Shown: in pieces, positions 1,416 to 44,239 of the stretch
How positions within the stretch are numbered: the stretch's first letter is position 1
Layout: the number at the start of each line of letters is the position of its first letter
Assembly: GCA_032622095.1 (NCBI GenBank)
Contig: CP136061.1
Span: forward strand, 231,630,944-231,694,943
Reading direction: 5' to 3'
Length of the DNA stretch: 64,000 nucleotides
DNA from: Siphonodentalium dalli
Lineage: Eukaryota > Mollusca > Scaphopoda > Gadilida > Siphonodentaliidae
Notes under the pieces: model-generated
What the model was told of the DNA's origin: nothing
Databases searched by the model: none
Seen by the model: only the letters and a program-made list of their open reading frames with translations
Program-made: the position numbers and the translations under genes

Positions 1416-1829
1416 TTAACCCTTTACCCAACAGAATGGCCCCGTGCCAATGCATTCTCTTATATATGCGAGTCGACCATAGGTCGCCTTGCATATATAA
1501 GAGAATGCATTGGCTTAACACATATTAAAAATGATCAAATTGTCAAAGAATGTAGAAAATATTATAAGAAAAAATGGTAAAAAGTGTTAAAAAAAGATTT
1601 TTTTTAGGCCAATGCATTCTCTTATATATGCGAGGCGACCTATGGTCGACTCGCATATATAAGAGAATGCATTGGCACAGGGCATAACTGTAACCATCAC
1701 AATGTGGTCAATGAACCGGTTCCAATGATATCCATATTTGTATGGTGTTATTGAGACAGACCGAAGATATTTTAGGCTGTTGAAGGTTTATTTGAGTGTT
1801 TTTGGCCGTTTTGTTGGGTAAAGGGTTAA
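1416..1829 (+). mobile_element. Family A TTAA element (piggyBac-like MITE)
   Basis: TTAA flanks both ends. The ends are CCCTTTACCCAACA and its complement TGTTGGGTAAAGGG, a 14-bp TIR. Inside are two hairpins of about 75-80 bp, arms CCAATGCATTCTCTTATA..., with apex GTCGACC-ATA-GGTCGCC in the first and its reverse complement in the second. An AT-rich spacer separates them, and a 150-bp right arm is unique to the family. A TTAA target and ends starting CCC are hallmarks of the piggyBac superfamily. With no transposase frame it must be non-autonomous. Seven copies occur in the window with very little divergence, which suggests recent activity. Confidence 0.85.
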
Positions 1830-7162: not shown

Positions 7163-7625
7163 TTAACCCTTTCATGACAGGAGCTTCCTGAATTTTTGTG
7201 AAAACCCTGTGTCAATGCATTCTGTTATATATGTGAGTCGACAATAGGTCACCTCGCATATATAAGAGAATGCATTGGCCTAACAAATTATAATTATTAA
7301 AGAATGAAAGAAAAAAAAATGATAAAAAATTGTTAACGAATGTAAGAAATAATGATAAAAAAATGATAAAAATTGGTAAATAATGTAAGAAAAAATTATT
7401 AAAAAATTGATAAAGAATGTAAGAAAAAATTATGAATTTTTTTTTAAATTCTGTTAAAATGTAAGATAAATTGATAAAAAATGATTTAAAATTGATAGGC
7501 CAATGAATTCTCTTATATATGTCAGGTGACCTATTGTTGACTCGTATACATTTGTATATAAGAGAATGCATTGGCACAGGGTCTTTAATGTTGCGCCAGC
7601 ACAGCTCCCATCATGAAAGGGTTAA
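7163..7625 (+). mobile_element. Family B ends carrying a family A-type core
   Basis: The outer ends are family B: TTAACCCTTTCATGACAGGA and GCTCCCATCATGAAAGGG + TTAA. The two hairpins have the family A apex (GTCGAC...GGTCACC) and enclose a long A/T spacer of the family A kind (repeats of AATGATAAAAAATT). It is therefore a chimera of two TTAA families. Confidence 0.75.
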
Positions 7626-11788: not shown

Positions 11789-14700
11789 GTGAGTTTCATT
11801 TTTATTTTTCTGGTTATTTATCCCAGCCATTGTTGGTCACAATGAATTAATTGCTAGATTATCATCCAACTTTTTCGAAAATAAGGGTTGGCAGGTGAAT
11901 TTTATTTTGCCAACACAAATTATAATGGCAAGTTTTGAACATTTCTACAGCATTTCTTTAGAAATTATAAATTGGCTTCTACTTAAGCAATGGATGTTGA
12001 TTTGCTTGCGTTCCATTGAGTTTGGATGCAAGTTGATCTGACATTTTGTGTGGAACGCGAAAGCATTCCACACATAAAAATGTCAGACCAACTTGCATCC
12101 ATACTCTTTGGAACGTAACAGAATCAATATCCATTACTTATATTTACACTCAACCGAGTCAACTTGCTGATTAAAAGAGCATTAAGTGCCCATTTCCAAC
12201 ATTATTCTTGTAGCTCATGGCAAGTTGTGTCTACACAAAAATGGAAGCAAGTAGGGGGGTCAGCGTGCGACATTATGTGAAGTAATTTTGACCAACCAAC
12301 GTCCTGCGAATGTATGTGGGAGTGTAAATATAACTTTTTCTATGGCATTGCCTTTTGTTGTAGATAATTTGGAGGGCTGATACCATGTGCTTTGAAACTT
12401 CTCAATTTGAATTTTTTTTATTGATTATTGATTTTTGCAATGTAATTCAACAACTAAGGCATGAAGAAAAAATCAATACCACATTATTAGAATAAATTTA
12501 GTTTTGAGGAGAGGACTAAATTGAGGTCAGGAGGGGATGATAATCTATAACAGTTTTCATTTTGACCTTACATGATACATTGACACTAAAACATTTAAAA
12601 AGGACAGAAGGCAGTGGGTTCATAACATTAAAGTCTGTAAATCAATTATCGTCAACAAGTACATGAAAAAATAGATTGGCTTGCTGATTGACTTTGTTCT
12701 CATTTACATTATTAATAACTCTCCAATAATGAGATTTTTCATATCACAACTGTTGTTTTGTAAACATTGCTGTTACAGTGGAATTACCGATAAAAGTCCA
12801 ATTAGTTCAATAATTTCCCAAAGTTGAATCAAAACGATGGTATTAAAACATTGGAAATGGTCAAAATATTGAAAAAATAGTTAAAAAATCTTATTTAGAC
12901 TGAAATATTTTAACTATTCGATCAACGATGTTTGTTGACAAATCACTCTAACAGTTTTGTTTACATAACAATGGTTTCAACACGTGATATTTCAATAATG
13001 AATATAAAAACAATGTTTATTTATTTCTCCGTGTTCTTCTTAGTGGTGATTTTTTAACAGACTTTTATATTTTTTGCACATTTACCCGCTGCAAGCTCAT
13101 TGAGTGTCTTTGAACCAATCACTCTGGCCTGCTGGATCTCCTTGAATAAATATTTAAATGATAAGATGGTCTTCTCATGTCCCCAGCCTTGACTCAGAGA
13201 TGAAAAGATCAGCCCTAGTTGTTTCACAAAGTCAAGGAAGTTGATAATAACCATCCAGCGGCATTGCATTTTTAAAGTCACTTATGGGGCCATCTGCTAT
13301 AATTCTCAATGGAAGCTATCCAATAAAAGAATTAATATGAGTCAAGAATGAGAGTTAAATGCACTCACGTACATGAAGAATCACGTATAACAACCTGATA
13401 ATTATAACAAAAATGAGAAAAAGGCTTAACCCTTTACCCAACAGAACGGCCCTGTGCCAATGCATTCTCTTATATATGCGAGTCGACCATAGGTCGCCTC
13501 GCATATATAAGAGAATGCATTGGCTTAACACATTAAAAATTATAAAATTGTTAAAGAATGTAAGAAAAAATGGTAAAAAGTGTTAAAAAAAGATTTTTTT
13601 TAGGCCAATGCATTCTCTTATATATGCGAGGCGACCTATGGTCGACTCGCATATATAAGAGAATGCATTGGCACAGGGTATAACTGTAACTATCACAATG
13701 TGGTCAAGGAGCCGGTTCCAATGATATCCATATTTGTATGGTTCTATTGAGACAGACCGAAGATATTTTAGGCTGTGGAAGCTTTATTTGGCCGGTTTTG
13801 GCCGGTTTGTTGGGTAAAGGGTTAAGCCATTTTCACATTTTCGTTATAATTACCATATTGTTTTAAATTATTCATAGAGTTAATTAGTGTATTTTGAACT
13901 CATCCCTGACACAAATTCATTCATTTGTTGCATATTTTCTGTTGAATAAAGTAGAGATGACTTATACAATGCCTGGATTTAGGTACACTCTCCCTTTAAG
14001 AGCTACATGTATTAGCTCTCGGAGACAATCTGAGTTTTTGATGCAAAACTTATTTCTATTTCAATGAAATTTAAATCTCTTTTTGCCAAGCCATGGTTGC
14101 ATCTGCACGGAATTGCCTTTACCGATAGTGGGATTTGTATACCTAAGATTATGTATACCTATAATTTGCTGACTTATTATTTTATATACCTTTGATTTTG
14201 CATAACTTATTTTGTAGACATGATTTTGCAGACCTATGATTTGTTAACCTGTCACTTTGCAGATATCGAACTAGAGAACTGTGATCTTCACGAGTTGCCA
14301 TCAGAAACGTTACGAGTTATTGAAGCTGATAGTTTCTGGTGTACCTCAAAATTACTCGATGGTATTCAAGATAACTACACCTTTGCTCAACCAGGGATTC
14401 AGAGCAAAGTTAATGCTTTAAGAGAACTCATCAAGAGAATTAATGGTTAGTGTACTTATTAACCCTTTATCTACTGAATGGATCATTCCATTCTGTTATA
14501 AAAGTATTAGTTGGAATGGTATAATATTCATCTGGAGGGATGTGCAGGATTCCATTCCATTGGTGGGAAATGTTCAGATATTAAGTACAACAAACAGCCA
14601 ATGTCCGTTTGTTGAACTTATTATCTGAACATTTCCAGGGGAATTACTCATTAATGAGTATTTAGTTATTAAAGCAATAAACCATAAGTATATGTGTAGG

Positions 14701-17700
14701 CAGGAAAATATCATTCACAGTTATGTTCTATTTCCAAACAAAGTCTATGCAACAGTTCTCGCTGGTTTCTTTAACCCTTTCTATACTGAATTTATTCTCC
14801 CAATCAGTAAAAAAGTGTACACTGGTAACTTTAGTTTGGGTTATTGTATCTAAACTAAATTTGGTATGTGAGTTTTCCAGATCAAATTACAGGTCGAATT
14901 TGGGTTCGTTCAGATTATTTTGTACTGACTTATGGCTCTTTTTGACTTAGAATTTTCAATATTTGAGGTTTCCACTGATGATAACTTTGGTTTATTTTAT
15001 CAGAACCAAATTTGGTATGTTAGTTTTCCAGACCAAAATACAGGTCAATTCAGCGTTATGCCCATAATAACATTTCCAATACTACAATTTAGTGTCACTG
15101 CCATTGTTTGTTTGTGTAGAGTTCATAAAAGCACACCAGGCATATTTTGCCATGCCCAGCATAGCTCTTGTTACATATGGTGTTATACAGAGTTTACCTG
15201 CAGACTATAGTTCAGCTAATAGCTGTAACTCTTCCTTTGTAAAGCGGCGGTTACTACTTACAGGCGCACACCCTCCTCCATAATTCCTGTATAGGCTTAC
15301 ATCATGTAGAATTCATGGGTATCACTATCATTAACCCTTTCATGACGGAAGCTGTTCTGATGCAGCATTAAAGATCCTGTGGCTATACATTTTCTTATAT
15401 ATGCGAGTCTCCCACAGGGAGCCTCGCATATATAAGAGAATACATTGGCCTAACAATATTTATCTTGATCTTGTAAACAAGTAAAAACAAATTGACCTGG
15501 AACCCTGATTACATCATTTTTTCCTGTAAGCTCTGACTTAACCCTTTAACCAACAGAACGGCCCTGTGCCAATGCATTCTCTTATATATGCGAGTCGACC
15601 ATAGGTCGCCTCGCATATATAAGAGAATGCATTGGCTTAACACATTAAAAATTATAAAATTGTAAAAGAATGTAAAAACAATGGTAAAAAGTGTTAAAAA
15701 AAGATTTTTTTTAGGCCAATGCATTCTCTTATATATGCGAGGCGACCTATGGTCGACTCGCATATATAAGAGAATGCATTGGCACAGGGCATAACTGTAA
15801 CCATCACAATGTGGTCAATGAGCCGGTTCCAATGATATCCATATTTGTATGGTTTTATTGAGACAGACCCAAGATAATTTAGGCTGTTGCAGCTTTATTT
15901 GGCCGTTTTTGGCCGGTTTGTTGGGTAAAGGGTTAATCCTTTTATGACGGGTGCTGTGCTGTGATCCTGTGTCAGTGCATTCTATTATATATGCAAGTCT
16001 CCCCAATGGAGCCTCGCATATATAAGAGAATGCACTGGCTTACAAAGTCAAGGTAAATATTGTGAGGCCAAAGTTTTCTGTTATATGTGAGAGGCTCCCT
16101 ATGGGAGACTCACATATATATATTTTAGAGAATGCATTGACACAGTTAAGTCCAGTCATGGAAGGGTTAAAAAATATTATCATTTGTTCAGTAAAATTGT
16201 AATTGTCTTCATTTGTCAATTTTCAATGTTGAATTTATGACAATAAGTTATCTTTATATCACTACCGATTTCGTTTCCCCCACTTCAGATACCTAATTGA
16301 CACAAGTATTGTTGCTTGTAAAAATCTTCTAAAGATCTTCTTTATTTTGTATTTTGCAGCTCCCTTACATGTACATTTAGAAAGGCAGTCAGTAGAATAT
16401 TTACAGTTTGCCTTCCGGTGGATGAATAACCTGTTAATGAGGGAGATTCCTCTCGGCTGCACTATAAGACTCTGGGATACTTGCCTGGTAAGTTGTTAAA
16501 TAGAGAATTATCACTTGATTTAACTGGTGATGTGAGATAATTCATGAGAGGCGGGGACGTTCTACAAACACGAGAGCGCAATGTGCTCGAGTGTTTTACA
16601 AAATAGTCCTTGTGTCGAATGAATTATGTCACATCACCAGTTCAATCAAGTGATTATTCTGTTTATTATATATTATTATAAACATCTGATTTACCATAAA
16701 TCTGAATAATACCACTAGTATACCCATGATGCATACATAATGCACCAGTTAAAGTGACATAATTCACTTGTGAAATTATCGTTTATAATTAATTGAGAAA
16801 TCAAGGTAAATCATACATAGGAATGTAATGATGCACCATATCCTTCAATATAACACCCCCAGGCTAAATTCATTTGTTAAAGGTACTCAACCCGATAAAA
16901 CTCCTCTCAATTACTAATTCAATGGCTTCGGGGGTCAAAAATATTTGATTCGAGTCGAGGAAGTCACCCATCAAAGCTCAGATTTGTTAGATATCGATTT
17001 TAGAAATCTATTATTTTTCATTATCGGGAATACTATCTGGCCCAGAACTCAGTCAAAATTGTCTGTTTGAATAGATTTGGAGTACACATCCAGAGCAGAT
17101 TACGGCAGTTATTGGTACTCATCTCGAGATCATAACAAATTTGAAAAATCAATATCTAATAACTCTGAGCTTTGTTTGATGGGTTCCTCGACTCGAATCA
17201 AATATTTTTTACCCCCAAAGCCAAAGAAATAGTAATATAGGACCCTCTGATCGGATTGTTGTTGTTGGAATCTGTTGAGATGGGGACCCTCTTTACGGGT
17301 TGAGTACCTTTAAATTAATCTGTGAATCGAGACCTTTATATAATTTCCTCACTTTCAGTGTGAAGCAAATGGATTTGCTGATTTCCATCTTTATGTTTGC
17401 GCATCCTTCCTGGAAAAGTTCGCCAAAGACATAATGCGAGAGAAAGATTTTCAGGTATGTGTCATGCTTTTATTCAGTTAACCCTTTCTATACTAAATGG
17501 ATTTTCCCATTCAGTTATAAAAGTATATGTTGGAATGGTCTATTATCATTTGGAGGGTTGTTCAGGTAATAAAAGCAAGATGACAGACAGAAAAACAGAT
17601 AATACAAGAGCAGAATGATTCAAATTCATTGGTTGGAAATGTTCAGATAATAAGTTCAACAAATGACCTACTTATCATCTGAACATTTCTACCAGGGATA

Positions 17701-19287
17701 ACCATTCATCAATGAGTATTTAATATAGAAATGGCTAAAAACATGGCTACAGACTCATTGAAATCTGAGTACAGTGTGCCTGTAATTTGCAGAATGGGGT
17801 CCCCAGAGGGTGAATTTAGTGCCTCTATCCTGCATTGTGGGCTAGCATAACTAAATTCACCCTCTGGGGACCTCATTCTGCTTATGCCTCATCATCTCTG
17901 GAAAGTTTCTGTATTATCAAATTTCTATAGAAACTTTTTTAGTTTAGTTTCTCTGTATCCCCGAATTCGCAGACGACACATTGGTAATCGAGGTTCACAA
18001 TGGGTGTACATCACAATATTCACCATTTGGGAACTTCAATCTGAGTCTATGTCTGCCATAGCATATGAGGCCATGCAGAATGAGGTCCCAAGAGGATGAA
18101 TTTGGTGATGCTAGCCCGATATGCGGGATAGCGCCACTAAATTCACCCTGTGGAGACCTCATTCTGCAAGGCACACTAAACTCAGGCTTGGTGAAATCAT
18201 GAATGCTGACGATCATTGCTTTGCATGTGAAATTAACAGATCTCACAGTCATTGATAGAGTAAAAAATAAATTTCTGGTTTTGTTCAAAGCATGGATAGA
18301 CCCTTGCATACAAATCTTTATCACATGATCCTACCCTTATTCCATTCAATAAACCCATTCTATAAGTTATGATATGAAACCTTTGTTACATAACAGGAAA
18401 TAGTGCCAGGTGTACCAATATATATTATTGTTGCACAAACGTTACCTTTGAATTCCGCCAAGTTTGTCGTTAGTATTTTTCCAACAAACTAATGAATGAA
18501 GAGTTTGAATAGTTTTTTCATTTAAATTTACTCCATTAAATATGTCAACAAGTCTTTATTTATCTGGAAACATCATCGCATACCTTATATATGCCAATGT
18601 TAGTTTCACGTCCCATTTGTTGATTTAACTATGTTTTATCGAGGTTTTGGGTCATGTAATAAATAGAATCTGCAGCTCATTCCCAGATTATAGCTGAATT
18701 TACAAAACTCGCCAAAGGCTCGGACCAGACCTAATTTACTGGACACATTTTGCATTCTCTTATATGTGTGAGTCTCCCATAGAGAGCCTCACATTTATAA
18801 GAGAATACATTGGCCTGACAATATTTACCTTGACCCTGTAAGCCATTGCATTCTCTTATGTATTCAAGGCTCCCTATGGGAGAATGCACTGGCACATGAA
18901 GTCCTGATATGGGCATGATTTCGTTGCAGCACGGGGTTGCGTCTTTATCAGAGAATGGCAACGGTGTCCTATGGCCGAGGTAATAATCAGTGTAAAGCGA
19001 ATTAAAATCAATTAATTGTGGAATGTGCTATATAAATGGATCATTTATTATTATTCTTAACACTGGGGTATGTCATGTGGGGTATGCACCGAGTAAAAGC
19101 CCAGCCCTTGTTATATCAAGTGACATTTTCAAATCTTTTTCAGGGAACATTGATGCTTTTACAGAATCTACCAACACATAATTGGGGTGACTCCGAAATC
19201 GGAGAGCTTCTAGCAGAAGCCTATAAACTGACATACATGTTCGCAGACGCTCCAAGCCATCTATGTCAGAAGAAATCGGGGAGATAA
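11668..19287 (+). CDS. TBC1D22: TBC1D22-type Rab GTPase-activating protein, last five exons
   Basis: TBC-domain proteins stimulate GTP hydrolysis by Rab GTPases using an Arg and a Gln finger; TBC1D22A/B are Golgi-associated members. Five exons join in frame: 11668-11788, 14263-14445, 16360-16487, 17359-17454 and 19144-19287 (stop TAA). The product is about 193 residues. Diagnostic blocks are GYVQGINDLVTPFFVVFLSE (Gln finger in YVQ), SVEYLQFAFRWMNNLLMREI, the LWDTCL block, FADFHLYVCASFLEKF and LMLLQNLPTHNW...EAYKL-YMFADAP, which match the C-terminal half of TBC1D22 as I recall it. The Arg-finger exon (IDIPR region) was not found, so the gene starts upstream of the exons seen, probably outside the window. 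Introns hold many MITEs. The C-terminal tail HLCQKKSGR differs from the vertebrate ending. Identity is confident; the A/B distinction does not apply to invertebrates. Confidence 0.92.
11985..12140. repeat. Fold-back palindrome in TBC1D22 intron
   Basis: Left arm AATGGATGTTGATTTG...GGATGCAAGTTGATCTGACA and right arm TGTCAGACCAACTTGCATCC...AATCAATATCCATT are reverse complements with few mismatches. The apex is AACGCGAAAGCATT. No relatives were seen in this window. Confidence 0.75.
12700..13060. repeat. Fold-back repeat related to 5040-5360
   Basis: One arm has TTAATAACTCTCCAATAATG and AACATTGCTGTTACAGTG. The other has TAACAGTTTTGTTTACATAA and GATATTTCAATAATG. The arms are partly complementary to each other and match the earlier copy. 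Confidence 0.5.
13426..13825 (+). mobile_element. Family A TTAA element in TBC1D22 intron
   Basis: TTAA at both ends, 400 bp, same orientation as the first copy. The right arm carries GGCCGGTTTTGGCCGGTTTG before TGTTGGGTAAAGGG, a slightly longer form than at 1416. Confidence 0.85.
13860..14005. mobile_element. Half of a fold-back element related to 19524-19832
   Basis: Shares ATTCATTCATTTGTTGCATAT, TTCTGTTGA and GGATTTAGGTACACT...CCTTTAA with the arm of the 19524-19832 element. Only one arm is present. Confidence 0.5.
14263..14445 (+). CDS. TBC1D22: TBC1D22 exon
   Basis: Acceptor CACTTTGCAG, donor AATG|GTTAGT, 183 bp. The split codon G+AT gives Asp. Encodes IELENCDLHELPSETLRVIE, then ADSFWCTSKLLDGIQDNYTF and QSKVNALRELIKRIN. 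The SFWC...LLDGIQD.Y block is typical of this TBC subfamily. Confidence 0.93.
14459..14672 (+). mobile_element. Family C TTAA element beside a splice donor
   Basis: TTAACCCTTTATCTACTGAATGG starts 14 bp after the exon ending at 14445. The internal inverted pair GAAATGTTCAGATATTAAGT and ACTTATTATCTGAACATTTCC forms a hairpin. The right end GAGTATTTAGTTATTAAAG is decayed. Confidence 0.65.
14770..15060 (+). repeat. Family C left end joined to 'GATAACTTTAG' repeat
   Basis: TTAACCCTTTCTATACTGAA at 14771 runs for about 45 bp, then changes at GTGTACACTGGTAACTTTAG into two diverged units of the dispersed repeat (GATAACTTTGG, CAGACCAAAATACAGGTC). The join shows one repeat interrupting the other. Confidence 0.55.
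15120..15283 (+). CDS. Candidate alternative terminal exon of TBC1D22
   Basis: A pyrimidine/T-rich acceptor (TTGTTTGTTTGTGTAG) precedes an open segment that, if joined to the exon ending at 14445, completes the split codon as Glu. It then reads EFIKAHQAYFAMPSIALVTY and onward to TGAHPPP before TAA at 15281. It would replace the rest of the TBC domain with 54 residues. I do not recognise the sequence and do not know of conservation. It could be chance, since one in three acceptors is in phase, or a retained fragment of another gene. Confidence 0.25.
15331..15483 (+). mobile_element. Family B TTAA element, right truncated
   Basis: TTAACCCTTTCATGACGGAAG, one complete hairpin, then TAACAATATTTATCTTGATC and loss of the remainder. 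Confidence 0.65.
15538..15936 (+). mobile_element. Family A TTAA element in TBC1D22 intron
   Basis: TTAA-flanked. The left end has one substitution (CCCTTTAACCAACA). The right TTAA is shared with the next element. Confidence 0.85.
15933..16170 (+). mobile_element. Family B TTAA element sharing TTAA with family A
   Basis: Starts TTAATCCTTTTATGACGGG in the TTAA that ends the family A copy. Both hairpins are diverged. Ends CAGTCATGGAAGGG + TTAA. Confidence 0.75.
16360..16487 (+). CDS. TBC1D22: TBC1D22 exon
   Basis: Acceptor TTTTGCAG, donor CCTG|GTAAGT, 128 bp, phase 1 in and phase 0 out. Encodes APLHVHLERQSVEYLQFAFR, then WMNNLLMREIPLGCTIRLWD and TCL. The FRWMNNLLMRE block is the conserved TBC motif downstream of the catalytic region. 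Confidence 0.94.
16506..16668. repeat. Imperfect palindrome in TBC1D22 intron
   Basis: The left arm GAGAATTATCACTTGATTTA...ACTGGTGATGTGA mirrors the right arm TCACATCACCAGTTCAATCA...AGTGATTATTCT. The centre is more GC-rich (GAGGCGGGGACG). Starts about 20 bp after the splice donor. Confidence 0.6.
16877..17313. mobile_element. Family F TTAA element
   Basis: TTAA followed by AGGTACTCAACCCG at the left, and CGGGTTGAGTACCT then TTAA at the right, a 14-bp perfect TIR. Complementary internal arms include TTTGATTCGAGTCGAGGAA against TTCCTCGACTCGAATCAAA. A diverged copy is at 44240-44678. Confidence 0.75.
17359..17454 (+). CDS. TBC1D22: TBC1D22 exon
   Basis: Acceptor CACTTTCAG, donor TTTTCAG|GTATGT, 96 bp, phase 0 both sides. 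Encodes CEANGFADFHLYVCASFLEK and FAKDIMREKDFQ. FHLYVCA-FL and the DFQ ending match TBC1D22 proteins. Confidence 0.94.
17478..17741 (+). mobile_element. Family C TTAA element
   Basis: TTAACCCTTTCTATACTAAATG starts 23 bp after a TBC1D22 donor. Internal hairpin GAAATGTTCAGATAATAAGT / ACTTATCATCTGAACATTTC. Right end TTTAATATAGAAATGG is decayed. Confidence 0.7.
17766..18184. mobile_element. Family H element, full length
   Basis: Ends GTACAGTGTGCCTGTAATTT and CTGCAAGGCACACTAAACTC are inverted. It has two hairpins and a middle segment (CTCTGGAAAGTTTCTGTATT, TGGGTGTACATCAC) absent from the short copies, so this is the long form of the family. Confidence 0.7.
18185..18749. other. Unassigned intronic DNA
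   Basis: AT-rich and without a recognisable repeat. It lies in the last TBC1D22 intron. Confidence 0.4.
18750..18902 (+). mobile_element. Family B remnant
   Basis: Diverged hairpin core (GCATTCTCTTATATGTGTGA...CTCCCATAGAGAGCC) and part of the second hairpin. No TTAA ends. Confidence 0.55.
19144..19287 (+). CDS. TBC1D22: TBC1D22 terminal coding exon
   Basis: Acceptor TCTTTTTCAG, phase 0, TAA at 19285-19287. Encodes GTLMLLQNLPTHNWGDSEIG, then ELLAEAYKLTYMFADAPSHL and CQKKSGR. No canonical AATAAA was seen in the following 250 bp, so the poly(A) site is undetermined. Confidence 0.93.
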   Translation, partial: GTLMLLQNLPTHNWGDSEIGELLAEAYKLTYMFADAPSHLCQKKSGR

Positions 19288-25677: not shown

Positions 25678-26010
25678 TTAACCCTTTGGCGAGTAGAACG
25701 ACATATATGTCGTCTATCGGTTGAGGAGTAGAACGACATATATGTCGTTTCAGGAAGTGTTATTTTGTGTAGACATAACTTCAATAAATCATCTGATTTA
25801 TAAATGATTTGTATAGGAGTTATTTTGATTTTTATAATGTCCCAAATGTATAAGTGCAATCGATTATGATAACACACGTTTAAAAAAATGCACATAAATT
25901 AAAACGAATTATTGGACACTTTTGACCCGAACTTGTTAATAATTATTGCTATGACGTTGACGTTAAATTTACTCATGACGTCATGTTACAGATACTCTCC
26001 AAAGGGTTAA
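25678..26010 (+). mobile_element. Family E TTAA element with twin palindromes
   Basis: TTAACCCTTTGGCGAGTAG at the left, ATACTCTCCAAAGGG + TTAA at the right. Near the left end the 16-bp perfect palindrome ACGACATATATGTCGT occurs twice, each preceded by GAGTAGA. Single copy in the window. Confidence 0.75.
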
Positions 26011-26656: not shown

Positions 26657-26770
26657 TTAACCCTTTCAGTGCCAGGGGCCGATCTCATCGGCCCTAATTT
26701 TTTTTTTTTTTTTTAGATTTAGATTTTTTTGGGTTGAATTTTGAATTTTGAATTTTGGGTATAGAAATGT
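26657..26770 (+). mobile_element. Family D TTAA element, right truncated
   Basis: TTAACCCTTTCAGTGCCAGG followed by the palindrome GGGCCGATCTCATCGGCCC, then a T run and TTGAATTTTGAATTTTGAAT. It has the same left end as the inverted 49682-49953 element. Confidence 0.65.
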
Positions 26771-26997: not shown

Positions 26998-27387
26998 TTA
27001 ACCCTTTACCCAACAGAAGGGCCCTGTGCCAATGCATTCTCTTATATATGCGAGTCGACCATAGGTCGCCTCGCATATATAAGAGAATGCATTGGCTTAA
27101 CACATTAAAAATTATAAAATTGTTAAAGAATGTAAGAAAAAATGGTAAAAAGTGTTAAAAAAAGATTTTTTTTAGGCCAATGCATTCTCTTATATATGCG
27201 AGGCGACCTATGGTCGACTCGCATATATAAGAGAATGCATTGGCACAGGGCATAACTGTAACCATCACAATGTGGTCAAGGAGCCGGTTCCAATGATATC
27301 CATATTTGTATGGTTCTATTGAGACAGACCGAAGATATTTTAGGCTGTTGAAGCTTTATTTGGCCGTTTTGTTGGGTAAAGGGTTAA
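26998..27387 (+). mobile_element. Family A TTAA element
   Basis: TTAACCCTTTACCCAACAG to TTTTGTTGGGTAAAGGG + TTAA. 390 bp: the GGCCGGTTTGGCC stretch before the right end is shortened. Confidence 0.85.
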
Positions 27388-30785: not shown

Positions 30786-33700
30786 ATTTTTTGGATTGGA
30801 TTGGTTTGGAATGAGAAGTGCGACATGAAGGACAATATCAGGTTTGATATTGAATTTTATATCCATTAATTTCATATAGTTTTGATGTTTTAGTGGGACA
30901 CCAATATTAAATTTTTGTGTTAATTTTTTAATAATGAAAGTGTCAATGACACTGTAGCTCAACTTAGGTAGGGGAATAATTTAATGGTTGACAGTAAATG
31001 GAGGAATAGGAAAGGTGCTAATTGAAATGTCTAACATGCGCCAAAGGATTTAGTGATGCAAAGAGTAAAATACAAGATGGCTGCTGGTGGCCATTTTTTT
31101 TGGCCAATTGACCCCAAAAGAACTCGTTCCCATCTACGTATAATTGTTAACATCCATGACAAATTTTATGAAGATCTGACCAAAGCTACGACATACAAAT
31201 TTCATGATGATCAGACGAACAGTACGACCTGTAGACCGCGCCAATGGATTGAATTTTAAAATCCAAGATGGCCGCTGGCAGCCATGTTTTTTGGCCGAAT
31301 GACCCCACAATGATTCGTTCCCATCTACATGTCAATGTCAACATTCATGACAAATTTAATAAATATCAGACCAAAGGTATGACCTGTAGCCCACGCCAAA
31401 GGATTTAGTCATGCAAAAAGTAAAATGCTGGTGGCAATGTTTTTTGACCGAATGACCCCAAAACGACTCGTTCCCATCTACATGTCATTGTTATAATTAA
31501 TGACAAATTTCATGACCATTTGACCAAAGCTACGACCTGTAGCCCGCACCAAAGGATTTAGTCATGCAAAGAGTAAAATCCAAGATGGCTGCTGGCGGCC
31601 ATGTTTTTTGACCAAATGACCCCATAACGACTCGATCCCATCTACATGTCATTGTTATCATTCATGACAAATTTCATGATGATCAGACGAACAGTACGAC
31701 CTGTAGCCCGCGCCAATGGATTGAATTTTGAAATCCAAGATGGCCGCCAGCAGCCATGTTTTTTGGTCGAATGACCCGACAATGATTCGTTCCCATCTAC
31801 ATGTCAATGTCAACGTTCATGACAAATTTTATAAAGATTAAACCAAAGGCAACCTATAGCCCGCGCCAAAGGATTTAGTCATGCAAAGAGTAAAATCCAA
31901 GATGGCGGCCATGTTTCTCCAAAATCACTCGTTCCCATCTACATGTCAGTGTTAACATCCATGACAAATTTCATAAACTTCCGATCAACACAACGACCTG
32001 TAGCCCGCGCCAAAGGATTTAGTCATGCAAAGAGTAAAATCCAAGATGGCTGCTGGCAGCCATGTTTTTTGGCCGAACGACCCCAAAATCACTCGTTCCC
32101 ATCTACATGTCATTATTAACATCAATGACAAATTTCATGATGATCAGACGAACAGTACGACCTGTAGCCCGCGCCAATGGATTGAATCTTGAAATCAAAG
32201 ATGGCTGCCAGCGGCCATGTTTTTTGGCCGAATGACCCCAAAATGACTCGTTCCCATCTACATGTCAATGTCAACATTCATGACAAATTTCATAAAGATC
32301 AGACCAAAGGTACGACCTGTAGCCCGCGCCAAAGGATTTAGTCATGCAAAGAGTAAAATACAAGATGGCTGCTGGCGGCCATGTTTTTTGGCCGAGCGAC
32401 ACCAAAATCACTCGTTCCCATCTACATGTCATTATTAACATCAATGACAAATTTCATGATGATCAGACAAACAGTACGACCTGTAGCCCGCGCCAATGGA
32501 TTGAATCTTGAAATCCAAGATGGCTGCCAGCGGCAATGTTTTTAGGCCGAATGACCCCAAAATGACTCGTTCCCATCTACATGTCAATGTCAACATTCAT
32601 GACAAATTTCATAAAGATCAGACCAAAGGTACGACCTGTAGCCCGGGCCAAAGGATTTAGTCATGCAAAGAGTAAAATCCAAGATGGCTGCTGGTGGCCA
32701 TGTTTTTCGGCCGAACAACTCCAAAATCACTCGTTCCCATCTACATGTCATTGTTAACATCCATGACAAATTTCATGATGTTCCGATCAAAGCTACGACC
32801 TGTAGCCCGCGCCAAAGGATTTAGTCATGCAAAGAGTAAAATCCAAGATGGCTGCTGGCGGCCATGTTTATTGGCCGAACGACCCCAAAATGACTCGTTC
32901 CCATCTACATGTCAATATTAACATCCATGACAAATTTCATGATGATCAGACGAACAGTACGACCTGTAGCCCGCGCCAATGGATTGAATTTTGAAATCTA
33001 AGATGGCCGCCAGCGGCCATGTTTTTTGGCCGAATGACCCCACAATGATTCGTTCCCATCTACATGTCAATGTCAACATTCATGACAAATTTCATAAAGA
33101 TTAGACCAAAGGTACGACATGTAGCCCGCGCCAAAGGATTTAGTCATGCAAAGAGTAAAATCCAAGATGGCTGCTGGCGGCCATGTTTTTTGGCCGAACG
33201 ACACCAAAATCACTCGTTGCCATCTACATGTCATTATTAACATCAATGACAAATTTCATGATGATCAGACGAACAGTACGATCTGTAGCCCGCGCCAATG
33301 GATTGAATCTTGAAATCCAAGATGGCTGCCAGCGGCCATGTTTTTAGGCCGAATGACCCCAAAATGACTCGTTCCCATCTACATGTCAATGTCAACATTC
33401 ATGACAAATTTCATAAAGATCAGACCAAAGGTACGACCTGTAGCCCGGGCCAAAGGATTTAGTCATGCAAAGAGTAAAATCCAAGATGGCTGCTGGCGGC
33501 CATGTTTTTCGGCCGAACGACCCCAAAATCACTCGTTCCCATCTACATGTCATTGTTAACATCCATGACAAATTTCATGATGTTCCGATCGAAGCTACGA
33601 CCTGTAGCCCGCGCCAAAGGATTTAGTCATGCAAAGAGTAAAATCCAAGATGGCTGCTGGTGGCCATGTTTATTGGCCGAACAACCCCAAAATGACTCGT

Positions 33701-34512
33701 TCCCATCTACATGTCAATATTAACATCCATGACAAATTTCATGATGATCAGACGAACAGTACGACCTGTAGCCCGCGCCAATGGATTGAATCTTGAAATC
33801 CAAGATGGCTGCCAGCGGCCATGTTTTTTGGCAGAATGACCCCAAAATGACTCGTTCCCATCTACATGTCAATGTCAACATTCATGACAAATTTCATAAA
33901 GATCAGACCAAAGGTACGACCTGTAGCCCGGGCCAAAGGATTTAGTCATGCAAAGAGTAAAATCCAAGATGGCTGCTGGCGGCCATGTTTTTCGGCCGAA
34001 CGACCCCAAAATCACTCGTTCCCATCTACATGTCATTGTTAACATCCATGACCAATTTCATAATGTTCCGATCGAAGCTACGACCTGTAGCCCGCGCCAA
34101 AGGATTTAGTCATGCAAAGAGTAAAATCCAAGATGGCTGCTGGTGGCCATGTTTATTGGCCGAACAACCCCAAAATGACTCGTTCCCATCTACATGTCAA
34201 TATTAACATCCATGACAAATTTCATGATGATCAGACGAACAGTACGACCTGTAGCCCGCGCCAATGGATTGAATTTTGAAATCCAAGATGGCTGCCAGCG
34301 GCCATATTTTTTGGCCGAATGACCCAAAAATGACTCGTTCCCATCTACATGTCAATATCAACATTCATGACAAATTTCATGAAGATCAGACCAAAGGTAC
34401 AACCTGTAGCCCGCGCCAAAGGAAATTGTTGACGGACACACGAACACACGGACACACGGACGACGGACGCCAAACCATGGCAATAGCTCAAACTTACAAG
34501 TAAGTTGAGCTA

Positions 34513-34757
34513 AAAACTGACATTCTTGGGTATTTATAGGTCTACTTTATATGTCGTATTTGGGTTCAATATTTTGTTGGCAAAACAGCGTTCAATTACA
34601 TTTTATGTGTTGTTGTAAACGGATGGCTGGAACACATATTTAAACAAGTTTCTCCTGAAAACTTGCTCATTTCAGAGATAACTGGAAATTAAAAGATGCA
34701 AATTTAGATATATTATTTTATCCAAGTTATATATATATGAAAGTGTCAATGCCACTG
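34513..34757 (+). repeat. Inter-element spacer, copy 1
   Basis: A 245-bp non-monomer sequence (AAAACTGACATTCTTGGGTA ... AAGTGTCAATGCCACTG) between two array elements. It recurs at 38761-39005 and 42207-42451 with no difference that I could see. Confidence 0.85.
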
Positions 34758-36145
34758 TAGCTCAACTTGGGAAAGGGAATAATTTCATGTGTTACAGTCA
34801 ATGGAGTGATTAGGAATGTGGAAAGGCCTAGTCATGCAAAGAGTAAAATCCAAGATGGCAGCTGGCAGCCATGTTTTTTTTGCCAAATGACCCCAAAAAG
34901 ACTCTTTTCCCATTTAGATGTCATTAATAACATCCATCACAAATTTCATGATGATCCGACAAAAGATACAACCTGTAGCCAGTGCCAAAGGATTTATTCA
35001 TGTGAAGAGTAAAATACAAGATGGCTGCTGGCGGCCATGTTTTTTGGCCAAATGACCTCAAAATTACTCGTTTCCCATCTACATGTCAATATTAACATCC
35101 ATGACCAATTTCATAATGATCAGACCAAAGCTACGACCTTTAGCCCATGCCAAAGGATTTAGTCATGCAAAGAGTAAAATCCAAGATGACTGCTGGCGGC
35201 CATGTTATTTGGTCGAATGACCCGACAATGATTCGTTCCCATCTACATGTCAATGTCAACGTTCATGACAAATTTTATAAAGATTAAACCAAAGGCAACC
35301 TATAGCCCGCGCCAAAGGATTTAGTCATGCAAAGAGTAAAATCCAAGATGGCGGCCATGTTTCTCCAAAATCACTCGTTCCCATCTACATGTCAGTGTTA
35401 ACATCCATGACAAATTTCATAAACTTCCGATCAACACAACGACCTGTAGCCCGCGCCAAAGGATTTAGTCATGCAAAGAGTAAAATCCAAGATGGCTGCT
35501 GGCAGCCATGTTTTTTGGCCGAACGACCCCAAAATCACTCGTTCCCATCTACATGTCATTATTAACATCAATGACAAATTTCATGATGATCAGACGAACA
35601 GTACGACCTGTAGCCCGCGCCAATGGATTGAATCTTGAAATCAAAGATGGCTGCCAGCGGCCATGTTTTTTGGCCGAATGACCCCAAAATGACTCGTTCC
35701 CATCTACATGTCAATGTCAACATTCATGACAAATTTCATAAAGATCAGACCAAAGGTACGACCTGTAGCCCGCGCCAAAGGATTTAGTCATGCAAAGAGT
35801 AAAATACAAGATGGCTGCTGGCGGCCATGTTTTTTGGCCGAGCGACACCAAAATCACTCGTTCCCATCTACATGTCATTATTAACATCAATGACAAATTT
35901 CATGATGATCAGACAAACAGTACGACCTGTAGCCCGCGCCAATGGATTGAATCTTGAAATCCAAGATGGCTGCCAGCGGCAATGTTTTTAGGCCGAATGA
36001 CCCCAAAATGACTCGTTCCCATCTACATGTCAATGTCAACATTCATGACAAATTTCATAAAGATCAGACCAAAGGTACGACCTGTAGCCCGGGCCAAAGG
36101 ATTTAGTCATGCAAAGAGTAAAATCCAAGATGGCTGCTGGCGGCC

Positions 36146-36947
36146 ATGTTTTTCGGCCGAACAACTCCAAAATCACTCGTTCCCATCTACATGTCATTGT
36201 TAACATCCATGACAAATTTCATGATGTTCCGATCAAAGCTACGACCTGTAGCCCGCGCCAAAGGATTTAGTCATGCAAAGAGTAAAATCCAAGATGGCTG
36301 CTGGCGGCCATGTTTATTGGCCGAACGACCCCAAAATGACTCGTTCCCATCTACATGTCAATATTAACATCCATGACAAATTTCATGATGATCAGACGAA
36401 CAGTACGACCTGTAGCCCGCGCCAATGGATTGAATTTTGAAATCTAAGATGGCCGCCAGCGGCCATGTTTTTTGGCCGAATGACCCCACAATGATTCGTT
36501 CCCATCTACATGTCAATGTCAACATTCATGACAAATTTCATAAAGATTAGACCAAAGGTACGACATGTAGCCCGCGCCAAAGGATTTAGTCATGCAAAGA
36601 GTAAAATCCAAGATGGCTGCTGGCGGCCATGTTTTTTGGCCGAACGACACCAAAATCACTCGTTGCCATCTACATGTCATTATTAACATCAATGACAAAT
36701 TTCATGATGATCAGACGAACAGTACGATCTGTAGCCCGCGCCAATGGATTGAATCTTGAAATCCAAGATGGCTGCCAGCGGCCATGTTTTTAGGCCGAAT
36801 GACCCCAAAATGACTCGTTCCCATCTACATGTCAATGTCAACATTCATGACAAATTTCATAAAGATCAGACCAAAGGTACGACCTGTAGCCCGGGCCAAA
36901 GGATTTAGTCATGCAAAGAGTAAAATCCAAGATGGCTGCTGGCGGCC
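36146..36947 (+). repeat. Extra 802-bp five-monomer duplication
   Basis: 36146-36947 is repeated at 36948-37749. The corresponding stretch occurs once in the blocks on either side (from about 32700 and 40394). This explains why block 2 is 4248 bp and blocks 1 and 3 are 3446 bp. Confidence 0.85.
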
Positions 36948-38760
36948 ATGTTTTTCGGCCGAACAACTCCAAAATCACTCGTTCCCATCTACATGTCATT
37001 GTTAACATCCATGACAAATTTCATGATGTTCCGATCAAAGCTACGACCTGTAGCCCGCGCCAAAGGATTTAGTCATGCAAAGAGTAAAATCCAAGATGGC
37101 TGCTGGCGGCCATGTTTATTGGCCGAACGACCCCAAAATGACTCGTTCCCATCTACATGTCAATATTAACATCCATGACAAATTTCATGATGATCAGACG
37201 AACAGTACGACCTGTAGCCCGCGCCAATGGATTGAATTTTGAAATCTAAGATGGCCGCCAGCGGCCATGTTTTTTGGCCGAATGACCCCACAATGATTCG
37301 TTCCCATCTACATGTCAATGTCAACATTCATGACAAATTTCATAAAGATTAGACCAAAGGTACGACATGTAGCCCGCGCCAAAGGATTTAGTCATGCAAA
37401 GAGTAAAATCCAAGATGGCTGCTGGCGGCCATGTTTTTTGGCCGAACGACACCAAAATCACTCGTTGCCATCTACATGTCATTATTAACATCAATGACAA
37501 ATTTCATGATGATCAGACGAACAGTACGATCTGTAGCCCGCGCCAATGGATTGAATCTTGAAATCCAAGATGGCTGCCAGCGGCCATGTTTTTAGGCCGA
37601 ATGACCCCAAAATGACTCGTTCCCATCTACATGTCAATGTCAACATTCATGACAAATTTCATAAAGATCAGACCAAAGGTACGACCTGTAGCCCGGGCCA
37701 AAGGATTTAGTCATGCAAAGAGTAAAATCCAAGATGGCTGCTGGCGGCCATGTTTTTCGGCCGAACGACCCCAAAATCACTCGTTCCCATCTACATGTCA
37801 TTGTTAACATCCATGACAAATTTCATGATGTTCCGATCGAAGCTACGACCTGTAGCCCGCGCCAAAGGATTTAGTCATGCAAAGAGTAAAATCCAAGATG
37901 GCTGCTGGTGGCCATGTTTATTGGCCGAACAACCCCAAAATGACTCGTTCCCATCTACATGTCAATATTAACATCCATGACAAATTTCATGATGATCAGA
38001 CGAACAGTACGACCTGTAGCCCGCGCCAATGGATTGAATCTTGAAATCCAAGATGGCTGCCAGCGGCCATGTTTTTTGGCAGAATGACCCCAAAATGACT
38101 CGTTCCCATCTACATGTCAATGTCAACATTCATGACAAATTTCATAAAGATCAGACCAAAGGTACGACCTGTAGCCCGGGCCAAAGGATTTAGTCATGCA
38201 AAGAGTAAAATCCAAGATGGCTGCTGGCGGCCATGTTTTTCGGCCGAACGACCCCAAAATCACTCGTTCCCATCTACATGTCATTGTTAACATCCATGAC
38301 CAATTTCATAATGTTCCGATCGAAGCTACGACCTGTAGCCCGCGCCAAAGGATTTAGTCATGCAAAGAGTAAAATCCAAGATGGCTGCTGGTGGCCATGT
38401 TTATTGGCCGAACAACCCCAAAATGACTCGTTCCCATCTACATGTCAATATTAACATCCATGACAAATTTCATGATGATCAGACGAACAGTACGACCTGT
38501 AGCCCGCGCCAATGGATTGAATTTTGAAATCCAAGATGGCTGCCAGCGGCCATATTTTTTGGCCGAATGACCCAAAAATGACTCGTTCCCATCTACATGT
38601 CAATATCAACATTCATGACAAATTTCATGAAGATCAGACCAAAGGTACAACCTGTAGCCCGCGCCAAAGGAAATTGTTGACGGACACACGAACACACGGA
38701 CACACGGACGACGGACGCCAAACCATGGCAATAGCTCAAACTTACAAGTAAGTTGAGCTA

Positions 38761-39005
38761 AAAACTGACATTCTTGGGTATTTATAGGTCTACTTTATAT
38801 GTCGTATTTGGGTTCAATATTTTGTTGGCAAAACAGCGTTCAATTACATTTTATGTGTTGTTGTAAACGGATGGCTGGAACACATATTTAAACAAGTTTC
38901 TCCTGAAAACTTGCTCATTTCAGAGATAACTGGAAATTAAAAGATGCAAATTTAGATATATTATTTTATCCAAGTTATATATATATGAAAGTGTCAATGC
39001 CACTG
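38761..39005 (+). repeat. Inter-element spacer, copy 2
   Basis: 4248 bp downstream of copy 1. Confidence 0.85.
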
Positions 39006-42000
39006 TAGCTCAACTTGGGAAAGGGAATAATTTCATGTGTTACAGTCAATGGAGTGATTAGGAATGTGGAAAGGCCTAGTCATGCAAAGAGTAAAATCCA
39101 AGATGGCAGCTGGCAGCCATGTTTTTTTTGCCAAATGACCCCAAAAAGACTCTTTTCCCATTTAGATGTCATTAATAACATCCATCACAAATTTCATGAT
39201 GATCCGACAAAAGATACAACCTGTAGCCAGTGCCAAAGGATTTATTCATGTGAAGAGTAAAATACAAGATGGCTGCTGGCGGCCATGTTTTTTGGCCAAA
39301 TGACCTCAAAATTACTCGTTTCCCATCTACATGTCAATATTAACATCCATGACCAATTTCATAATGATCAGACCAAAGCTACGACCTTTAGCCCATGCCA
39401 AAGGATTTAGTCATGCAAAGAGTAAAATCCAAGATGACTGCTGGCGGCCATGTTATTTGGTCGAATGACCCGACAATGATTCGTTCCCATCTACATGTCA
39501 ATGTCAACGTTCATGACAAATTTTATAAAGATTAAACCAAAGGCAACCTATAGCCCGCGCCAAAGGATTTAGTCATGCAAAGAGTAAAATCCAAGATGGC
39601 GGCCATGTTTCTCCAAAATCACTCGTTCCCATCTACATGTCAGTGTTAACATCCATGACAAATTTCATAAACTTCCGATCAACACAACGACCTGTAGCCC
39701 GCGCCAAAGGATTTAGTCATGCAAAGAGTAAAATCCAAGATGGCTGCTGGCAGCCATGTTTTTTGGCCGAACGACCCCAAAATCACTCGTTCCCATCTAC
39801 ATGTCATTATTAACATCAATGACAAATTTCATGATGATCAGACGAACAGTACGACCTGTAGCCCGCGCCAATGGATTGAATCTTGAAATCAAAGATGGCT
39901 GCCAGCGGCCATGTTTTTTGGCCGAATGACCCCAAAATGACTCGTTCCCATCTACATGTCAATGTCAACATTCATGACAAATTTCATAAAGATCAGACCA
40001 AAGGTACGACCTGTAGCCCGCGCCAAAGGATTTAGTCATGCAAAGAGTAAAATACAAGATGGCTGCTGGCGGCCATGTTTTTTGGCCGAGCGACACCAAA
40101 ATCACTCGTTCCCATCTACATGTCATTATTAACATCAATGACAAATTTCATGATGATCAGACAAACAGTACGACCTGTAGCCCGCGCCAATGGATTGAAT
40201 CTTGAAATCCAAGATGGCTGCCAGCGGCAATGTTTTTAGGCCGAATGACCCCAAAATGACTCGTTCCCATCTACATGTCAATGTCAACATTCATGACAAA
40301 TTTCATAAAGATCAGACCAAAGGTACGACCTGTAGCCCGGGCCAAAGGATTTAGTCATGCAAAGAGTAAAATCCAAGATGGCTGCTGGCGGCCATGTTTT
40401 TCGGCCGAACAACTCCAAAATCACTCGTTCCCATCTACATGTCATTGTTAACATCCATGACAAATTTCATGATGTTCCGATCAAAGCTACGACCTGTAGC
40501 CCGCGCCAAAGGATTTAGTCATGCAAAGAGTAAAATCCAAGATGGCTGCTGGCGGCCATGTTTATTGGCCGAACGACCCCAAAATGACTCGTTCCCATCT
40601 ACATGTCAATATTAACATCCATGACAAATTTCATGATGATCAGACGAACAGTACGACCTGTAGCCCGCGCCAATGGATTGAATTTTGAAATCTAAGATGG
40701 CCGCCAGCGGCCATGTTTTTTGGCCGAATGACCCCACAATGATTCGTTCCCATCTACATGTCAATGTCAACATTCATGACAAATTTCATAAAGATTAGAC
40801 CAAAAATACGACATGTAGCCCGCGCCAAAGGATTTAGTCATGCAAAGAGTAAAATCCAAGATGGCTGCTGGCGGCCATGTTTTTTGGCCGAACGACACCA
40901 AAATCACTCGTTGCCATCTACATGTCATTATTAACATCAATGACAAATTTCATGATGATCAGACGAACAGTACGATCTGTAGCCCGCGCCAATGGATTGA
41001 ATCTTGAAATCCAAGATGGCTGCCAGCGGCCATGTTTTTAGGCCGAATGACCCCAAAATGACTCGTTCCCATCTACATGTCAATGTCAACATTCATGACA
41101 AATTTCATAAAGATCAGACCAAAGGTACGACCTGTAGCCCGGGCCAAAGGATTTAGTCATGCAAAGAGTAAAATCCAAGATGGCTGCTGGCGGCCATGTT
41201 TTTCGGCCGAACGACCCCAAAATCACTCGTTCCCATCTACATGTCATTGTTAACATCCATGACAAATTTCATGATGTTCCGATCGAAGCTACGACCTGTA
41301 GCCCGCGCCAAAGGATTTAGTCATGCAAAGAGTAAAATCCAAGATGGCTGCTGGTGGCCATGTTTATTGGCCGAACAACCCCAAAATGACTCGTTCCCAT
41401 CTACATGTCAATATTAACATCCATGACAAATTTCATGATGATCAGACGAACAGTACGACCTGTAGCCCGCGCCAATGGATTGAATCTTGAAATCCAAGAT
41501 GGCTGCCAGCGGCCATGTTTTTTGGCAGAATGACCCCAAAATGACTCGTTCCCATCTACATGTCAATGTCAACATTCATGACAAATTTCATAAAGATCAG
41601 ACCAAAGGTACGACCTGTAGCCCGGGCCAAAGGATTTAGTCATGCAAAGAGTAAAATCCAAGATGGCTGCTGGCGGCCATGTTTTTCGGCCGAACGACCC
41701 CAAAATCACTCGTTCCCATCTACATGTCATTGTTAACATCCATGACCAATTTCATAATGTTCCGATCGAAGCTACGACCTGTAGCCCGCGCCAAAGGATT
41801 TAGTCATGCAAAGAGTAAAATCCAAGATGGCTGCTGGTGGCCATGTTTATTGGCCGAACAACCCCAAAATGACTCGTTCCCATCTACATGTCAATATTAA
41901 CATCCATGACAAATTTCATGATGATCAGACGAACAGTACGACCTGTAGCCCGCGCCAATGGATTGAATTTTGAAATCCAAGATGGCTGCCAGCGGCCATA

Positions 42001-42206
42001 TTTTTTGGCCGAATGACCCAAAAATGACTCGTTCCCATCTACATGTCAATATCAACATTCATGACAAATTTCATGAAGATCAGACCAAAGGTACAACCTG
42101 TAGCCCGCGCCAAAGGAAATTGTTGACGGACACACGAACACACGGACACACGGACGACGGACGCCAAACCATGGCAATAGCTCAAACTTACAAGTAAGTT
42201 GAGCTA

Positions 42207-42451
42207 AAAACTGACATTCTTGGGTATTTATAGGTCTACTTTATATGTCGTATTTGGGTTCAATATTTTGTTGGCAAAACAGCGTTCAATTACATTTTAT
42301 GTGTTGTTGTAAACGGATGGCTGGAACACATATTTAAACAAGTTTCTCCTGAAAACTTGCTCATTTCAGAGATAACTGGAAATTAAAAGATGCAAATTTA
42401 GATATATTATTTTATCCAAGTTATATATATATGAAAGTGTCAATGCCACTG
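42207..42451 (+). repeat. Inter-element spacer, copy 3
   Basis: 3446 bp downstream of copy 2. Confidence 0.85.
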
Positions 42452-43718
42452 TAGCTCAACTTGGGAAAGGGAATAATTTCATGTGTTACAGTCAATGGAG
42501 TGATTAGGAATGTGGAAAGGCCTAGTCATGCAAAGAGTAAAATCCAAGATGGCAGCTGGCAGCCATGTTTTTTTTGCCAAATGACCCCAAAAAGACTCTT
42601 TTCCCATTTAGATGTCATTAATAACATCCATCACAAATTTCATGATGATCCGACAAAAGATACAACCTGTAGCCAGTGCCAAAGGATTTATTCATGTGAA
42701 GAGTAAAATACAAGATGGCTGCTGGCGGCCATGTTTTTTGGCCAAATGACCTCAAAATTACTCGTTTCCCATCTACATGTCAATATTAACATCCATGACC
42801 AATTTCATAATGATCAGACCAAAGCTACGACCTTTAGCCCATGCCAAAGGATTTAGTCATGCAAAGAGTAAAATCCAAGATGACTGCTGGCGGCCATGTT
42901 ATTTGGCCGAACAGCCCCATCATTACTAATTCCCATCTACATGTCAATATTAACATCAATGACAAATTTCATGATGATCCGAAAAAAGATACGACCTGTA
43001 GCCCGTGGTAATGGATTGAATTTTGAAATCCAAGATGGCCACTGGCAGCCATGTTTTTTGACCGAACAAACCCAAAATGACTCGTTCCCATCTACATGTC
43101 ATTGTTAACGTCCATGACAAATTTCATGAAGATCCGACAAAAGCTACGACCTGTAGCCCGCGCCAAAGGATTTAGTCATGTAAAGAGCAAAATCCAAGAT
43201 GGCTGCTGGTGGCCATGTTTTTCGGCCGAACGACCCCAAAATGACTCGTACCCATCTACATGTCATTGTTAACATTCATGACAAATTTCACGAAGTTCTG
43301 ACCAAAGCTACGACCTGTAGCCCGCGCCTAAGGATTTAGTCATGCAAAGAGTAAAATCCAAGATGGCTGCTGGCGGCCATGCTTTTTGGCCGAACGACCC
43401 CAAAATCACTCGTTCCCATCTACATGTCAATATTAACATCCATGAGAAATTTCATGATGATCAGACGAACAGTGCGACCTGTAGACCGCGCCAATGGATT
43501 GAATTTTGAAATCCAAGATGGCCACCAGCGGCCATGTTTTTTGACCGAATAACCCCAAAATGACTCGTTCCCATCTACATGTCAATGTCAACATTCATGA
43601 CAAATTTCATAAAGATCAGAGCAAAGGTATGACCTGTAGCCCACGCAAAAGGAAATTGTTGACGACAACGGACGACAACCCATGGCAATAGCTCAAACTT
43701 ACAAAGTAAGTTGAGCTA

Positions 43719-44239
43719 ATAATCGATGGATACTTAATTCAAATTTTCTAGTAATTTTCCTTTGTCCATTATTTAAAAAAATGAGTATCCATTGTTCTCA
43801 TAAAGGAAAGAGATTCGAGATAAAATGAAAATTTATCATAATCATCAAATATATATCAAAACTGTATACATAATCTAACAATTCAGTAACATATTATGAA
43901 ACGTAATCAGATCTATTTTACCTGATGAAAACGTTATGTCCTTTTAATTGACGCTTCAGACTCAAACATATTTCACGAACTTCACGCTCGCCAAAAATTA
44001 TTTTGGCCATTTACAAATTATTTGGCAATTTGTCATAAACATTGGCCAAATTGAAAAAAAAAGAAAAAAGTTTTGGATCATTTTGAAAACCAAAACTAAA
44101 AAACAATAGAATAAATAATAAGTTATATAAATCAAAGCAAGATAATAAAAAGCGCGCCCAATTAAAAAATATAAAAATACCAACATAAGTAAGCACTGAT
44201 TAGCTAATTAGCTAAAAGCCGTTAAGTATTGTCAATTGA
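43719..44239. other. Unassigned AT-rich DNA
   Basis: Immediately right of the array. Overlapping - strand frames at 43998-44196 are Phe/Leu-rich and driven by composition. Confidence 0.45.

Follow-up and report, generated by a model that had tools for sequence, protein, structure and literature searches.

The end hairpins of IS200/IS605 elements are mismatched and in this respect resemble the hairpins of the cassette described here. As to other systems that come close to it, a dimer of the C-terminal domain of the piggyBac transposase is reported to bind a 19-bp internal palindrome (PMC7351741, PMC11707139), compensatory changes in paired inverted units and stems are reported for bacterial REPINs (PMC3116915), and PMC8794818 reports compensatory stem changes that arise by template switching. 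The cassette was analyzed in a stretch of 64,000 nucleotides (the window; C1:231,630,944-231,694,943) from an assembly of 2.23 Gb in nine contigs, whose size and repeat content point to a eukaryote. Like piggyBac-superfamily MITEs, its carriers have TTAA at both ends, CCCTTT tips and a length of a few hundred bp, and piggyBac-type transposase genes are present elsewhere in the genome; unlike such MITEs, they contain a twin 67-nt palindrome cassette, which occurs also with at least one terminal repeat that lacks TTAACCC. The internal palindromes of its most thoroughly described carriers (family A) lie, like the piggyBac 19-bp repeat, farther from one tip than from the other, but they are much longer and have a triloop and a mismatch, and as a binding site they would be putative. 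As in the REPINs described in PMC3116915, the cassette has two inverted palindromic units with compensatory stem changes; unlike REPINs and IS200/IS605, it resides in a eukaryote-sized genome and has TTAA tips. Its stem bases change in pairs, like those of the RNA-gene stems for which template switching was reported (PMC8794818), although in resident cassette copies there is no sign of that process. Among the open-access paper titles listed, none concerns such a twin-hairpin cassette. The cassette is an extremely abundant twin-palindrome MITE form with lineage-level covariation, by its form a variant of the piggyBac-type MITEs.

The preliminary description of this DNA placed twin hairpins at 1441-1682, and both are present, at 1447-1513 (plus strand) and 1609-1675 (minus strand), within a 414-bp family A element (1416-1829, plus strand) whose ends, TTAACCCTTTACCCAACA ... 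TGTTGGGTAAAGGGTTAA, were read directly and which, judging by its form, is probably a non-autonomous piggyBac-type MITE. Each 67-nt hairpin consists of 26 pairs followed by T opposite C, five further pairs and an ATA loop. In the first one the 5-bp apex helix is CGACC/GGTCG, the apex GTCGACC-ATA-GGTCGCC occupies 1472-1488, and T1473 is opposed to C1487; folded as DNA, this hairpin has an MFE of -29.9 kcal/mol against -5.17 (sd 1.97) in 200 shuffles (z -12.55). The second hairpin, reverse-complemented, matches the consensus of the first, a relation that the preliminary description extended to all elements; it holds for consensus copies of family A, while the twins of family B usually differ at pair 4-64. 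The hairpin core, with up to 3 mismatches, has 78 matches in the window, where chance would give 0.02, and window GC is 0.33-0.38 away from a satellite block near 31-44 kb. Further family A copies lie at 13426-13825 (plus, with two consensus hairpins), 15538-15936 and 26998-27387 (both plus), and 45885-46284, 53792-54191 and 58034-58433 (all minus). All seven listed window copies, 390-414 bp long, have TTAA at both ends, and the tips next to it are CCCTTTACCCAACA and TGTTGGGTAAAGGG, starting with CCC and ending with GGG; the copy at 15538 has the variant AACCAACA. In three of these copies one TTAA also belongs to a B-type tip that abuts the element (1416-1829; 15538-15936, with the B-type tip at 15933; 45885-46284, with the TTAA at 46281), which is expected of TTAA-targeting elements.

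The exact 27-mer arm of family A has 128,888 matches in the genome (64,566 + 64,322), and its reversed control has none. Genome pattern counts are in general lower bounds, and places were drawn from the first 100 matches listed, owing to which all fetched B loci are on C1. The generic apex pattern, which admits 16 combinations of bases at the two variable pairs, gave 72,321 + 72,322 matches, and the B apex CTCCC/GGGAG accounts for 23,215 copies (11,571 + 11,644). The A and B apexes are as previously claimed, GTCGACC-ATA-GGTCGCC and GTCTCCC-ATA-GGGAGCC; two pairs differ between them, and both differences are compensated. A third, fully paired type, CGCCC/GGGCG (GTCGCCC-ATA-GGGCGCC), stands one pair away from A and one pair away from B and is present in 415 exact copies (213 + 202). 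Hence, descent of A and B from two unrelated ancestors with no intermediate apex types, the case named beforehand as refuting, need not be invoked. Full chimeras are rare: there are 27 with the B left and A right arm (12 + 15) and 64 of the opposite kind (31 + 33), whereas several thousand of each kind would be expected, by an estimate based on the B share of 6/100 among the generic-apex matches listed, if the arms were independent. The apex arms are linked almost completely. Predicted RNA energies are -50.9 kcal/mol for A, -51.7 for B, -53.0 for the intermediate and -45.6 and -43.1 for the chimeras, which makes the latter approximately 5-10 kcal/mol weaker than the paired types; these predictions lend weak backing to selection at the level of source elements. 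Within family A, the wobble variant GG/TC (G.T) occurs in 304 copies (131 + 173) and the mirror mismatch GA/CC in 184 (95 + 89), p 6e-8 provided that the copies are independent. We give this excess little weight, as one amplified lineage may suffice to produce it, and the two variants would be equivalent in a DNA cruciform.

The general layout of the cassette is CCCTGTG-hairpin-spacer-inverted hairpin-CACAGGG, and, with flanks read by eye, it lies behind at least four terminal sequences, TTAACCCTTTACCCAACA in family A, TTAACCCTTTCATGAC in family B, TTAACCCTTTCAGTGC and GACCCGCCATATCAAATCCAG. In the window, family B includes a three-hairpin element with tips TTAAGCCTTTCATGAC and TTAAACCTTTCATGAC (1826-2192, plus), whose TTAA at 1826-1829 is common to the family A element; an element at 47098-47345 (minus, right edge approximate), where pair 4-64 is G-C in the hairpin 47141-47207 and A-T in the hairpin 47237-47303; and an element at 47941-48197 (plus). 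The hairpin 47990-48056 of the latter (GTCGCCC-AAA-GGGTGCC) had been cited as a case of restored pairing; in fact it holds G.T, which is not a Watson-Crick pair, and it reads as a decayed copy of the CGCCC type, its partner at 48086-48152 being of the CTCCC type. The element at 7163-7625 (plus) is an intermediate one, with B tips (CATGAC / CATGAT), one A apex (GA/TC), one A-derived apex (AA/TC) and an A-like spacer, and B tips accompany A or A-derived apexes also at the fetched loci L036, L037 and L052. The third terminal sequence, TTAACCCTTTCAGTGC, was found in one copy (49494-49680, plus, right edge not defined), where it precedes a single A-type hairpin, 49538-49604. The fourth, the terminal repeat GACCCGCCATATCAAATCCAG, lacks TTAACCC tips and surrounds A-type twin hairpins (58762-58828 and 59049-59115) at 58710-59165, with a second copy at L066 6622-7054. 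At ten fetched loci with CGCCC hairpins the partner hairpins seen are B-type or decayed, and one of these loci, L130, has an A-like spacer. Such types between A and B likewise remove the need for two unrelated ancestors. The simplest history, suggested by these sequences and not by a tree, would start from a CGCCC ancestor, with pair 29 altered toward B and pair 30 toward A. We also considered whether the cassette stands free as a TTAA element; TTAACCCTGTGCCARTGCATTC matches only 337 times, and therefore this is not its main form.

Covariation along the stem was analyzed in aligned hairpins. Of 249 matches, 195 passed the filter (no more than 2 gaps and 18 mismatches), and 189 were left after removal of duplicates; 151 B-like and 27 A hairpins were analyzed, and 11 were left out (ten TC/TC chimeras and one AA/TC). 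The 195 rows came from the window (43), 31 B-tip loci (28), nine arbitrarily placed 10-kb stretches (4), 60 B-apex loci (88), ten paired-intermediate loci (19) and ten chimeric-apex loci (13). At pair 4-64, G-C doubles number 51 in 149 rows of B-like hairpins, with an expectation of 30.9 (association p 1e-13, a statistic that counts cells and not independent events). This excess is mainly a contrast between the twin hairpins within B elements: exactly one A-T and one G-C hairpin is found in 27 of 47 B twins, and in 39 of 47 under a looser class rule. The remaining 29 stem pairs, in 150 B-like hairpins with 881 arm changes (411 left and 470 right), contain 34 private Watson-Crick doubles, where within-class shuffles give 32.3 (sd 4.8; p 0.40). 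The same is seen at apex position 30, where a base belonging to neither A nor B (G or T) is present in 617 hairpins genome-wide: among the matches listed (contigs C1 and C2), a Watson-Crick partner opposite the novel base occurs in 0/100, the pair is G.T in 85/100, and the opposite base is still of the A, B or CGCCC type in 99/100. Thus, the covariation that had been proposed for checking at the apex exists at the level of lineages, in pairs 29-39 and 30-38 and, outside the apex, in pair 4-64, and private changes show no excess of it. Pairing was established in lineages; resident copies do not regain it, and common hairpin-templated repair in these copies, in other words, ongoing repair of one arm from the other, is not supported.

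Pair 29-39 also shows an excess in the aligned rows, but it must not serve as a test, as it stems mostly from ten loci picked for the paired intermediate; for this reason, what serves as evidence on pairs 29 and 30 is how often A, B, the intermediate and the full chimeras occur in the genome. In places not picked by the intermediate or chimeric apex, G at column 29 is opposed to A in 4 rows, to T in 2 and to C in 1, and forms mismatched at this single pair are not rare among the rows fetched from such places. Uncompensated change is widespread at column 61, altered in 61 of 151 rows with the partner unaltered in 52 of those. Nominal association was observed at two CpG-bearing pairs, 24-44 (p 0.044) and 23-45 (p 0.071; uncorrected, 33 pairs), which CpG decay on both arms would yield as well. 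Private changes common to both twins (17 against 11.2 expected, p 0.04) give a weak signal, open to duplicated loci. The mismatch that was said to be kept in most copies sets T (column 27) against C (column 41), retained in 83/86 and 84/86 B-like hairpins, and in 75/76 and 74/76 of a stricter subset with all targeted places dropped. Its retention alone is not exceptional, because several paired A/T positions are conserved about equally.

Three routes remain to explain the lineage-level pairing: selection on a folded apex, selection on a dyad-symmetric duplex site, and rare template switching. The preliminary description held that either hairpin-templated repair or stem selection was needed; the repair is unsupported as an ongoing process, stem selection is possible at the level of source elements only, and the duplex route was absent from it: a symmetric protein dimer that reads the palindrome in duplex DNA would favor matched changes without any folding. 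The explanation we prefer, to which we assign a probability of about 45%, is that a few paired changes at the source level were inherited widely, that the palindrome is read during mobilization, and that resident copies decay without repair. The carriers of the twin-palindrome cassette would be MITEs of piggyBac form, present in very large numbers, apparently inserted at TTAA and presumably moved by a piggyBac-type transposase. The compensated differences would have arisen a few times in source elements, at 29-39 (G-C or T-A), 30-38 (C-G or A-T) and 4-64 (A-T or G-C), and many copies would then have inherited these paired states. That the paired states dominate large lineages would most likely mean that the complementarity of the palindrome, i.e., its dyad symmetry, is read while the element is mobilized, whether in the form of a hairpin, extruded or single-stranded, or as a duplex palindrome under a dimeric transposase. 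After insertion, the copies would accumulate independent mutations, and no repair of one arm from the other is detectable. We infer that selection, and not a rare copying event or an accident, set the paired states; source-level selection is favored, with its folded and duplex forms not separable here. Against this explanation stand the unpaired forms at 29-39, the changes at column 61 and the persisting T.C mismatch, and the lineage-level pairs known are only three.

A specific form of this explanation, whose odds overlap with it, has a symmetric transposase dimer bind the apex as a palindrome in duplex form, with both half-sites changed and no hairpin ever formed. Taken by itself, we consider it rather unlikely, despite the piggyBac precedent (PMC7351741, PMC11707139). 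Some other TTAACCC tips do adjoin palindromes whose sequences are unrelated, such as AACGACATATATGTCGTT and GGGCCGATCTCATCGGCCC near the TTAACCCTTT tips at 25678-26010 and 26657-26700; however, when 34 distinct tips were each tested by one representative with 60 shuffles, only 9 proved to have a nearby palindrome at p < 0.05, and 6 of these 9 are the hairpins under study. Moreover, the stem of 31 pairs is longer than such a site requires, and half-site symmetry fails to predict the prevalence of GG/TC over GA/CC. As for the transposases, 128 genome matches to PF13843 (piggyBac transposase) exceed the cut-off, with the best E of 2.2e-94, and many have no internal stop; the scoring covered 116 of 649 candidates, and some of the matches are two pieces of one gene. 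One piggyBac-type gene (L019, C6:126588385-126592661) has an open frame of 680 aa behind TTAACCCTTTACCCATCACATCGG, which is similar but not identical to the left tip of family A; neither a right end nor a hairpin core was found in the stretch examined. The core is likewise absent from all 28 transposase loci (L001-L028) in stretches of about 4 kb, which often miss the element ends.

According to the next explanation, each paired change arose in one step, by a rare template switch in a source copy, under little or no stem selection, and amplification followed. Both apex changes are pairs of transversions (G-C to T-A and C-G to A-T) with no wobble intermediate, the CGCCC/GGGCG type is one pair away from both A and B, and such switches are a reported producer of compensatory stem changes (PMC8794818). 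On the other hand, private paired doubles are not in excess, and none was listed at position 30, so that the process, if it occurs, is too rare to be seen; besides, the T.C mismatch next to the apex has not been erased. We hold this origin to be doubtful. Still less probable, in our opinion, is that A and B are plain inherited subfamilies whose paired differences are accidents of a few founders. Founder events were few, private mutations are unconstrained, uncompensated change at column 61 is widespread, and the G.A forms at 29-39 in unselected rows take some weight from the preferred explanation and add it to this one; nevertheless, three separate lineage-level pairs have changed in both arms, and the counted paired types far outnumber full chimeras. 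Selection of the stems as small-RNA precursors is highly improbable, for, although the hairpins are long and stable, the loop has 3 nt and no Rfam family reaches the gathering score in the window, a search that covers described RNAs only.

The family separates lineage-level covariation from copy-level repair, the latter being unsupported, and its approximately 140,000 near-intact apexes together with several source lineages amount to a natural experiment on pairing in long stems.

A second set of palindromes, family F (about 91 nt; 2542-2632, 17790-17880, 47516-47709, 52974-53064, 55928-56018 and 63218-63309), has an unrelated outer stem and the apex CTA-T-CCCGC-ATA-GCGGG-C-TAG, i.e., T opposite C, five pairs and a triloop (ATA or ACA). 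Among 22 such hairpins from the window and the fetched loci, T.C is kept in 17 and C.C is found in 4; the twin at 47516-47709 has C.C in both copies, the altered base being on the outer arm. TTAACCC tips are absent from the flanks of family F copies. Counted together with CGACC, CGCCC and CTCCC, CCCGC of this family would bring the paired forms of the apex helix to at least four. The apex geometry common to family F and the cassette, noticed post hoc in two families, may reflect shared recognition, shared origin or coincidence. That T.C (T on the outer arm, C on the inner one), a GC-rich 5-bp helix and the ATA triloop form a recognition module of several unrelated palindromic mobile elements, with the cassette passed between terminal repeats, is a speculative reading that we consider very unlikely. 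If true, it would provide a eukaryotic parallel to bacterial hairpin-recognizing transposition and would make structure-guided eukaryotic transposition directly testable.

Several tandem arrangements were also observed. The family B tip TTAACCCTTTCATGACNGGAGCT occurs in dense same-strand clusters at C1:3257437-3273396, 4325740-4329315 and 4907344-4924003, with spacings that include 37-bp steps and multiples of 37, resembling a minisatellite born from a transposon tip. Single hairpin units stand in tandem at L039 150-348 and L043 84-341, with steps of 79 bp and 96 bp. In the window, a large tandem satellite with 155- and 164-bp spacing in alternation and a strong strand skew occupies 31259-44000.
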